This document shows positions 53,319 through 55,363 of a stretch of DNA of 64,000 bases, piece after piece. The DNA is from Anaerovibrio lipolyticus LB2005. GTDB lineage: Bacteria; Bacillota; Negativicutes; Selenomonadales; Selenomonadaceae. Where the stretch lies: positions 62,001 through 126,000 of the forward strand of contig NZ_JHYA01000004.1 of the NCBI RefSeq assembly GCF_000621545.1, in the 5' to 3' direction. Both the position numbers and the translations under genes were made by a program. The notes beneath the pieces were generated by a model, which had not been told where the DNA came from, searched no databases, and saw only the letters and a list, made by a program, of their open reading frames with translations. The first letter of the stretch is position 1. Every line of letters starts with the position of its first letter.

Positions 53319-53347
53319 TTGACATGGGTATTTGAGAGCCGTATAAT
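53319..53347 (+). promoter_or_regulatory. Consensus promoter of small RNA candidate 1
   Basis: TTGACA, 17-base spacer, TATAAT; no ORF follows before a terminator. Confidence 0.8.
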
Positions 53348-53353
53348 GTATAC

Positions 53354-53451
53354 ACAAGGTCAGGAGAGGTGGCCTCGTCGTTTTACATAGGGAGATTACG
53401 GCGGACGTCACAGACCTAAGCAAAGGCGGATTTAAATACCGCCTTTTTCTT
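53354..53451 (+). ncRNA. Candidate small structured RNA with terminator
   Basis: Starting about 7 bases after the consensus promoter, roughly 95 bases fold as a three-way junction: closing stem AGGTC/GACCT (53358/53412), hairpin GAGG-tgg-CCTC, and a third arm CGTC...GACG enclosing a purine-rich loop (AGGGAGA). Immediately downstream AAAGGCGG-n9-CCGCCTTT plus a T-run is a strong terminator. No start codon with a ribosome site lies inside. It may be a free small RNA or a riboswitch whose downstream gene has been lost. I compared it by eye with glycine, THF, preQ1, fluoride, purine and T-box signatures and found none. Confidence 0.6.
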
Positions 53452-53679
53452 TTTGCAAAAAATTTGTCAGACAATTCGAAACAATAAAATCATAAGTCAA
53501 TACAAAACAATTATATAGACTCAAAAATGAAATCTGATAGGAATAAGATGAATTGTACAGATTAGCTGTAAACCAGCCAATTCTTTTCTATATAAAATTA
53601 GCTCCTGTTAATAAATAGAAAGGATAACTTAAATTATTCCTTATATTATTCGTATTTCGGAATATAATTAGACCTAGAC

Positions 53680-53708
53680 TTTACAAAAATAAGGTTTCGT
53701 AATATACT
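53680..53708 (+). promoter_or_regulatory. Promoter of the alanine/glycine symporter leader
   Basis: TTTACA, 17-base spacer, TATACT, giving a leader of about 205 bases. Confidence 0.65.
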
Positions 53709-53714
53709 CTTTAA

Positions 53715-53876
53715 TATACATTTTGTATAGTTTGGGCAATGAAGCCCGTAGCCCTAGTATTTGCTGGAGTTGCGGTATTTTGCCCGCAACACTTGATGAG
53801 GTCGAGCTGCTAGCGATGATTGAGTTTAGTGATGCTCACTGAAAAATGGGCTGCTGATACAGTCCATTTTTGTTTT
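53715..53876 (+). ncRNA. Candidate riboswitch/attenuator leader of the symporter gene
   Basis: The leader contains consecutive hairpins GGGC-aatgaa-GCCC, GTTGCGG-n8-CCGCAAC and AGTGA-tgc-TCACT, and ends in an intrinsic terminator AAAATGGGCTG-n6-CAGTCCATTTT with a T-rich tail, 45 bases before the symporter start. GTAGCCC near 53750 can pair with GGGCTGC inside the terminator, giving a possible antiterminator. A terminator in a leader with an alternative pairing is the typical expression platform of a riboswitch or attenuator. No glycine-riboswitch or T-box signature was found. Confidence 0.55.
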
Positions 53877-53920
53877 GCATCTTTTTCAGGTGATGACAAT
53901 TGCTATAGGGAGGATAGGTT

Positions 53921-55363
53921 ATGGATTATGGACTTATAATAAAACAGGTCAATGATTTTGTATGGGGACCTGTCATGCTGGCGTTGCTGGTGGGTACCGG
54001 TGTTTTTCTTACGGTGCGGCTGAAGTTTAAGCCTTGGCTTAATTTGCCATACGCTCTCAAAATGATTTTGGCCAAGAAGGATTCATCAGAGGGTGATGTT
54101 ACTCCTTTCCAGTCACTTATGATTGCCCTTTCTGCTACAGTGGGAACCGGTAATATCGTGGGTGTGGCTACTGCTATGGTTTTAGGTGGACCGGGTGCTT
54201 TGGTGTGGATGTGGATTTCCGCCGCCTTTGGTCTTTCCACCAAATATGCTGAATCCGTTTTGGCGGTTAAGTATCGTGAAAACAATAATAGGGGAGAAAT
54301 GGCCGGTGGCCCTATGTATGCCATGAAAAATGGTATTGGTGGCTTTATAGGTAAGACCATGGCAACCCTGTTTGCGGCCTTTGCCGTATGTGCTTCCTTT
54401 GGAATTGGCAATATGACCCAGGCCAACTCCATTGCCGCTGCCTTTAATTCCAGCTTCCATGTGGATCCGGCCTTTGTAGGTGCTATTCTGGTTATTCTCA
54501 CCATGGTGGTACTCTTTAAGGGTGTTCGCTCCATTGGTGCTGTATCCAGTATTGTAGTGCCTGTTATGGCTGCTTTTTATATGATAGTAACTGTAGTGGT
54601 TATTGTTGCCAATGCCGCAAATCTTCCAGCTGGTGTTGCTGAAATTTTCACCATGGCATTTGCCCCTGAGGCTATGGCTGGTGGTGTGGGCGGTTCCATT
54701 GTGGCTACTATGATGTCAGCCATGCGTTGGGGTGTTGCCCGTGGTGTTTTCTCCAATGAGGCGGGCCTTGGTTCTGCCCCTATTGCGGCGGCTGCAGCCC
54801 GTACAGACCACCCATCCCGTCAGGGCTATGTAAATATGACTGGCACCTTCTTTGATACCATGATTATCTGCGTGCTCACTGGTCTGGTTATTGCCTCCTC
54901 CGGTGCCCTGGGAACCATTGATCCGGAAGCTGGCAAGGCTGTATCCGGCGCTCATCTGACTATTTTGGCTTTTTCCACCGTATTTGGGGAGCATGCCAGA
55001 GTGATTATTTCCTGTTCCTTGGCCCTCTTTGCCTTCTCTACCATTCTTGGTTGGGAGTATTACGGCGAAAAGGCTTTGGAATACCTGTGGGATAATCACG
55101 ACCTCACTGTAATGTACAGAACCGTTTATGCTTTTGTAACCTATATCGGTGCCACTCAGGCCCTGGATATGGTATGGGATTTCTCCGATACTGCCAACGG
55201 TCTTATGGCCATTCCAAACCTTATCTGTCTACTGTGGCTCAGCAAGGATGTGGCCCGGGAATGCTTCGATTATGAGGAGCGGGTAGCAGTTCGGGAGAAG
55301 AGGGGCGAAAAGGTTAATCTTAATCTTGAGTCCACGGACTATGCAAAGAAGAGCTTAATTTAA
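53921..55363 (+). CDS. Alanine/glycine:cation symporter (AGCS family)
   Basis: 480 residues, about eleven membrane helices. AGCS signatures: FQSLMIALSATVGTGNIVGVATAM (about 60-83), GGPGALVWMWISAAFGLSTKYAES (about 88-112), GGPMYAMKNG, and FSNEAGLGSAPIAAAAARTDHPSRQG (about 275-300). It imports alanine or glycine with Na+ or H+. GGGAGG is the ribosome site. The C-terminus is a long basic/acidic tail. Controlled by the structured leader just upstream. Confidence 0.94.
   Translation: MDYGLIIKQVNDFVWGPVMLALLVGTGVFLTVRLKFKPWLNLPYALKMILAKKDSSEGDVTPFQSLMIALSATVGTGNIVGVATAMVLGGPGALVWMWISAAFGLSTKYAESVLAVKYRENNNRGEMAGGPMYAMKNGIGGFIGKTMATLFAAFAVCASFGIGNMTQANSIAAAFNSSFHVDPAFVGAILVILTMVVLFKGVRSIGAVSSIVVPVMAAFYMIVTVVVIVANAANLPAGVAEIFTMAFAPEAMAGGVGGSIVATMMSAMRWGVARGVFSNEAGLGSAPIAAAAARTDHPSRQGYVNMTGTFFDTMIICVLTGLVIASSGALGTIDPEAGKAVSGAHLTILAFSTVFGEHARVIISCSLALFAFSTILGWEYYGEKALEYLWDNHDLTVMYRTVYAFVTYIGATQALDMVWDFSDTANGLMAIPNLICLLWLSKDVARECFDYEERVAVREKRGEKVNLNLESTDYAKKSLI

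Follow-up and report, generated by a model that had tools for sequence, protein, structure and literature searches.

A putative ANTAR-type transcription attenuator ahead of an alanine/glycine symporter gene in Anaerovibrio lipolyticus

Results

Organization of the symporter leader

The window, as the whole analysed stretch of 64,000 nucleotides is called here (G000:C4:62001-126000), comes from a member of the Anaerovibrio lipolyticus group in the Negativicutes. It carries a gene for an alanine/glycine:cation symporter (AGCS) that is 98% identical to its counterpart in DSM 3074 and is preceded by a leader of ~ 206 nt, running from the predicted start near 53715 to the ATG at 53921 (Table 1). 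The segment 53715-53876 has a folding energy of -59.2 kcal/mol with z = -4.9, and equally stable structures were obtained in 0/200 shuffles. The leader, the promoter, the structured RNA and the terminator-like hairpin at 53842-53871, all proposed in the initial annotation, are upheld. Between the promoter and the hexaloop hairpin described below, the sequence is not conserved across species, and the small 5' hairpin in this stretch is poorly kept in L018 and L019.

Comparison of the leader with Rfam 15, cis-regulatory families included, gave nothing at or above the gathering score, and relaxed thresholds returned only chance matches. The covariance model of the glycine riboswitch (RF00504) likewise has no match in this leader, in agreement with the earlier remark that this element is unrecognisable at the gene. 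It does match upstream of a paralogous AGCS gene elsewhere in the genome (L235, 56.4 bits, L235:1290-1392, G000:C6). Because this paralogue stands behind a glycine riboswitch, AGCS paralogues in one cell appear to be under different RNA devices.

In addition, a candidate small RNA was noticed further upstream, at 53319-53456 (+), where a perfect consensus promoter (TTGACA-17-TATAAT) is followed by ~ 100 nt that hardly differ between five Anaerovibrio genomes and end in a GGCGG..CCGCC-TTTTTC terminator. This region has no ORF of at least 80 aa and no Rfam family at the gathering score.

Table 1. Features of the AGCS locus and the gene of the ANTAR regulator (window positions unless a contig is named)
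Feature	Position	Strand	Basis or remark
Promoter, -35 TTTACA / 17 nt / -10 TATACT	53680..53708	+	kept in sister species L015-L019
Small 5' hairpin UAUAC-AUUUU-GUAUA	53715..53729	+	sits where an ANTAR P1 would; without A1/G4 hexaloop
Putative antiterminator hairpin (P2-like) GGGC-AAUGAA-GCCC	53734..53747	+	hexaloop 53738-53743 with A1 and G4
Ancestral intrinsic terminator T1, CCGTAGC-C-CTAG..CTGG-A-GTTGCGG then UAUUUU	53746..53781 (hairpin 53746-53775)	+	-14.4 kcal/mol
GTAGCCC, 5' half of the earlier proposed alternative pairing	53748..53754	+	partner GGGCTGC 53848-53854
Repeat element inside the insertion	53781..53845	+	dispersed copies between genes of RM50 share 80% identity with it
92-nt insertion within the T1 U-tract	53782..53873	+	alignment; boundaries uncertain by a few T
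Second terminator T2, AAAAATGGGCTG..CAGTCCATTTTT + GTTTT	53842..53871	+	part of the insertion; hairpin -13.5 kcal/mol
Shine-Dalgarno-like AGGGAGG	53907..53913	+	sequence
Alanine/glycine:cation symporter (AGCS), 480 aa	53921..55363	+	Na_Ala_symp 454.5 bits; TIGR00835 agcS 477.6 bits
ANTAR regulator gene	L095:1099-1674		

A hexaloop hairpin overlapping a terminator

The initial annotation had overlooked an older terminator hairpin (T1) at 53746-53775, which overlaps a small hexaloop hairpin at 53734-53747, and the status of ~ 53782-53873 as an insertion. The hexaloop carries A1 and G4, as do the loops of the hairpins that form ANTAR targets, of which the second (P2) overlaps a terminator (Ramesh et al. 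2012, PMC3369931). The 5' arm of T1 and the 3' strand of the P2-like hairpin have CC in common, and the two structures are mutually exclusive. The simplest arrangement is present in L016, L018 and L019, which have no insertion and in which T1 ends in a 7-T tail: promoter, ~ 25 nt, GGGC-AAUGAA-GCCC, CCGUAGC..GUUGCGG-UAUUUUUUU, RBS and ATG. In more distant relatives the hairpin takes the forms GGAC-AAAGAG-G(C)UCC, AGAC-AAAGGA-GUCU and AGAC-AAUGAG-GUCU, and the terminator sequence is altered there, yet the overlap of hairpin and terminator is retained.

Covariation was examined in 47 distinct hairpins taken from the leaders of AGCS, amtB and permease genes. One of the base pairs occurs as AU 26 times and as GC 21 times, and is never broken. 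Paired cells amount to 93%; shuffles reach 82% and slid controls no more than 46%. Loop A1, loop G4 and the closing C-G pair are invariant across the 47, a set chosen for A1/G4. The conserved core is a 4-bp hairpin whose A1/G4 hexaloop is the signature of targets of ANTAR proteins. Transcription attenuation, the other part of that proposal, is well supported by a hairpin and terminator that are mutually exclusive, conserved and covarying.

Sites with an A1/G4 hexaloop over a terminator arose in 0/3000 dinucleotide shuffles of six leaders, and the 64-kb window contains exactly one, at 53734-53747. A P2 covariance model (R1), too short for use genome-wide, gives this site its best score in the window (20.1 bits, E 0.016), with the sequence of the hairpin itself in the seed. 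The ANTAR-target 13-mer AGCAANGRRGCUY, quoted for the eut genes of E. faecalis (PMC3369931), is matched at 11/13 positions by the window (GGCAATGAAGCCC) and at 12/13 by L019 (GGCAATGAAGCTC).

The hairpin is absent from the AGCS orthologues L218 and L219 of the same genus, and has a 7-nt or bulged loop in L020, L022, L023 and L225-L227. In AGCS leaders from other genera it is mostly absent. A terminator lies within 160 nt of the gene in 37 of the 77 AGCS leaders examined, outside Anaerovibrio mostly without a hexaloop.

Two further features of AGCS leaders were observed. Those of L020, L022 and L023 are longer, with an extra 5' hairpin (e.g. AGTGTC...GACACT) ahead of a hexaloop hairpin that has a one-base irregularity in loop or stem. 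Leaders of the Mitsuokella/Selenomonas type (L031, L041, L044, L048, L052, L056, L059, L062 and L073) have a different element in common, in which AAAGCARYGTTGCTT comes first and a complementary terminator, GCAGCGCTGTTTC-TTTTT, after it, with no ANTAR hexaloop; this is possibly another attenuator class.

A lineage-specific insertion and the second terminator

The 92-nt insertion is found only in A. lipolyticus-type genomes (the window, L015 (DSM 3074) and L017) and is missing from sister species. It interrupts the U-tract of T1, the tail of which reads UAUUUUGCCC in the window instead of UAUUUUUUUGC; in L017, T1 is weaker. As judged from the alignment, the insertion brought or acquired T2 and shortened the U-tract of T1; the attenuator itself exists and predates this event. 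P2 is identical letter for letter across the three insertion-bearing genomes, and because it is unchanged in all of them we suggest that it is still in use.

The initial annotation had placed an intrinsic terminator directly before the gene and proposed GTAGCCC/GGGCTGC as the alternative pairing of a switch. The terminator is present as T2, and the complementarity also exists, with -11.5 kcal/mol for the bare duplex. This pairing, however, is absent from both the MFE fold and the P2-enforced fold, which retain the 53842-53871 hairpin, and a scan of the window found no ANTAR hairpin overlapping T2. Since the pairing and T2 lie within the lineage-specific insertion or depend on it, neither can be the ancestral switch.

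Part of the insertion resembles a repeat that lies between genes in strain RM50 and also follows a tRNA-Ser gene. A dispersed intergenic repeat of Anaerovibrio, GCCAGCAACACT...AGTGATGCTCACTGG, was recorded at L010:1501-1568, L013:1501-1568, L014, L007:324-477 and L341:318-380. In L007, with two tandem copies, and in L341 it starts exactly at the CCA end of tRNA-Ser, and it may be derived from tRNA-flanking sequence. The insert was also considered as the 3'-terminal part of a protein-coding sequence (frame ...ATLDEVELLAMIEFSDAH*). This reading was rejected, as other copies are intergenic and have no common frame.

The ANTAR regulator and its putative regulon

The genome contains exactly one ANTAR gene (profile match, 71.9 bits), which encodes a 191-aa receiver-ANTAR protein of the PdtaR/EutV-like kind. 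The protein aligns over its full length with Rv1626 (1S8N, the best solved relative, E 6e-59) and with EutV (6WSH), and its gene adjoins that of a GAF_PdtaS-HisKA_2 kinase (PdtaS/EutW-like) and groES/groEL. In alignment with the RNA-contact residues listed for EutV (PMC8934654), R142, K143, E160, M172 and R175 are kept, K147R and Y164F are conservative, and N173 and R177 are changed, with T at 177 as in Rv1626. Most of the contact residues are therefore present. The regulator gene lies apart from its putative targets.

To map further sites, the genome was scanned with two stem patterns (83 GRCAAHGNNGYC and 30 AGCAANGNNGCT matches, screened for an overlapping terminator), a procedure that sites with other stems would escape. 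Among these matches, the ones that lie in leaders and overlap a terminator are confined to three genes: AGCS, amtB (TIGR00836), which has two of them in series, and an ethanolamine permease gene (TIGR00908, 470.8 bits), which likewise has two in series. At the first of the permease sites, AGCAATGAAGCTT, the eut consensus is matched exactly. One more flagged site (L106) looked like spurious long pairing. All confirmed targets are nitrogen-source transporters.

Co-occurrence with ANTAR genes was followed in amtB leaders. In Selenomonadaceae, one or two A1/G4 hairpins are present in 44/44 ANTAR-encoding genomes, 40/44 qualifying under the strict rule of an overlapping terminator. In genus g13, which has no ANTAR match above the cut-off, the hairpin is present in 0/6 amtB leaders; because these six genomes form a single clade, the contrast is supportive and not independent evidence. 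Hexaloop hairpins overlapping a terminator in amtB leaders belong to the A1/G4 class in 65 of 69 cases, the other observed classes occurring once each. Outside Selenomonadaceae, the unit was found in 25 of 29 amtB leaders of Negativicutes; two of the 29 come from incomplete MAGs (87-88%) in other families that are ANTAR-negative yet carry amtB units.

Tandem pairs of hexaloop-terminator units occur widely ahead of amtB across Negativicutes families (e.g. L099:1500-1720, L324, L328, L333 and L336). In families other than Selenomonadaceae, the first unit often follows a conserved CATCAACAAGAT-like stretch.

Lack of a recognisable P1 hairpin

In eut leaders, antitermination in vivo depends on a first hexaloop hairpin, P1, which precedes P2 by 5-12 nt (PMC3369931, PMC8934654). 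A search of the 45 nt upstream of 90 sites found A1/G4 loops no commoner than chance (4 of 62 hexaloop hairpins). In the window, the position is occupied by a hairpin with a 5-nt loop, and no hexaloop hairpin lies 5-12 nt before P2. The distance from the -10 hexamer to the start of P2 is 13-27 nt in amtB leaders and 24-25 nt in short AGCS leaders; most amtB leaders have the P2 stem 13-23 nt past the -10 hexamer, which leaves no room for P1. Because P1 is not recognisable, the element falls outside the dual-hexaloop ANTAR RNAs as strictly defined in 2012; its action would be like theirs, with a single hexaloop.

Discussion

A model of the attenuator and alternative explanations

The leader is very probably a transcription attenuator controlled by an ANTAR protein and shared with amtB and the ethanolamine permease as a regulon of nitrogen uptake. 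This reading draws on the hairpin, its overlap with the terminator, the covariation, the regulon members, the ANTAR gene and the co-occurrence of ANTAR genes and the motif, all of them observed in the sequences. By default, the nascent RNA would fold T1 (53746-53781) and transcription would end ahead of the symporter gene. The single ANTAR response regulator, once activated, presumably through phosphorylation by the adjacent PdtaS/EutW-like kinase, would bind the A1/G4 hexaloop of the hairpin at 53734-53747 and stabilise it. The stabilised hairpin would block pairing of the T1 5' arm, so that the polymerase would read into AGCS. The AGCS gene, amtB (two units) and the ethanolamine permease gene (two units) would form a common regulon for the uptake of nitrogen sources. 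The mechanism would be a known one with a new target and in a single-hexaloop variant; protein binding, phosphorylation, the direction of control and a nitrogen-related signal are what we infer within it.

A new metabolite riboswitch controlling termination, for example in response to alanine or glycine, was the initial proposal. A highly structured leader (z -4.9), a terminator before a transporter gene and the lack of an Rfam match agree with it, but the conserved part is a 14-nt hairpin with a 4-bp stem, too small for a classical aptamer, and the sequence from the promoter to this hairpin varies between species. The same hairpin recurs before ammonium and ethanolamine transporters in a genome with one ANTAR regulator, and its conserved positions are exactly those of ANTAR contact, which makes a riboswitch very improbable. 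Somewhat less remote, and still improbable, is binding of the hairpin by another RNA-binding protein, the co-occurrence with ANTAR genes being incidental. The missing P1 and the two incomplete ANTAR-negative genomes that retain amtB units speak for such a protein; against it stand the A1/G4 enrichment (65/69), the close match to the eut target, the disappearance of the units from the ANTAR-less genus, and the known association of ANTAR regulons with nitrogen genes (PMC3369931). Attenuation through a leader peptide is hardly credible. A leader ORF (ATGAAGCCCGTA...) is rich in Ala/Val/Gly codons through which amino-acid supply could be sensed, and a short frame starts at an ATG within the hexaloop in the window, L016, L018 and L019; yet no Shine-Dalgarno sequence lies ahead of this ATG, which is absent in L020 and L022-L025, and the conserved letters track RNA pairing. 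This candidate was rejected as not conserved and without an SD.

Decay or rewiring of the switch in A. lipolyticus is the alternative to be taken most seriously, although we consider it unlikely. Here, the insertion would have broken the U-tract of T1, and expression would now be set by T2, whether or not 53748-53754 pairs with 53848-53854. The altered T1 tail, the strength of the T2 hairpin (-13.5 kcal/mol) and the weaker T1 in L017 point in this direction. Against it stand the letter-for-letter conservation of P2 in three insertion-bearing genomes, the alternative pairing, which is not predicted to beat T2, and the lack of an ANTAR hairpin over T2 in the window.

Beyond this locus, we lean slightly towards the view that Negativicutes use single-hexaloop ANTAR antiterminators, with one A1/G4 hairpin to each terminator, often as two hairpin-terminator units in series and with no recruiting P1, to run a regulon of ammonium, ethanolamine and alanine/glycine uptake through one PdtaR-like regulator. 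If true, this would be at odds with the prevailing opinion that antitermination requires P1. A single hexaloop was proposed as the minimal ANTAR binding site in the 2022 structure paper, with P1 retained as a recruiting hairpin (PMC8934654). If P1 is truly missing here, these leaders offer a natural system to test that proposal, and either antitermination without a recruiting hairpin or a replacement for P1 would be expected to come to light.

Comparison with known systems

The closest parallel is provided by the E. faecalis eutP/G/S/A leaders and EutV. Both systems have an A1/G4 hexaloop with C-G closure over the 5' arm of a terminator, a nearly matched 13-mer, a REC-ANTAR regulator with a HisKA_2 kinase, and nitrogen- or ethanolamine-linked targets. 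Unlike in eut, where P1 and P2 are both needed, only the P2 equivalent is recognisable here; an AGCS symporter gene is the putative target, and the gene of the regulator lies away from the putative targets, beside groES-groEL. NasR/nasF and AmiR/amiE are similar in having a hexaloop hairpin ahead of an intrinsic terminator, ANTAR antitermination and a role in nitrogen metabolism (PMC3369931), but their sensory domains differ (NIT; AmiC-bound AmiR) and theirs are described as dual-hairpin leaders. The mycobacterial PdtaS/PdtaR pair (Rv3220c/Rv1626) is related through its proteins, since Rv1626 is the best solved relative of the regulator and the kinase has a GAF_PdtaS domain. Its targets and signals are other ones, and terminator-based control is seen here at the level of sequence.

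The glycine riboswitch RF00504 is found before genes of the same transporter family, with an aptamer on L235 and none in this leader. The word "symporter" is absent from the main text of the 2012 survey (PMC3369931), a statement that leaves aside its supplementary tables. The present analysis adds an AGCS symporter to the ANTAR targets as a putative member, and replaces a supposed orphan riboswitch with a named mechanism and a candidate regulator.
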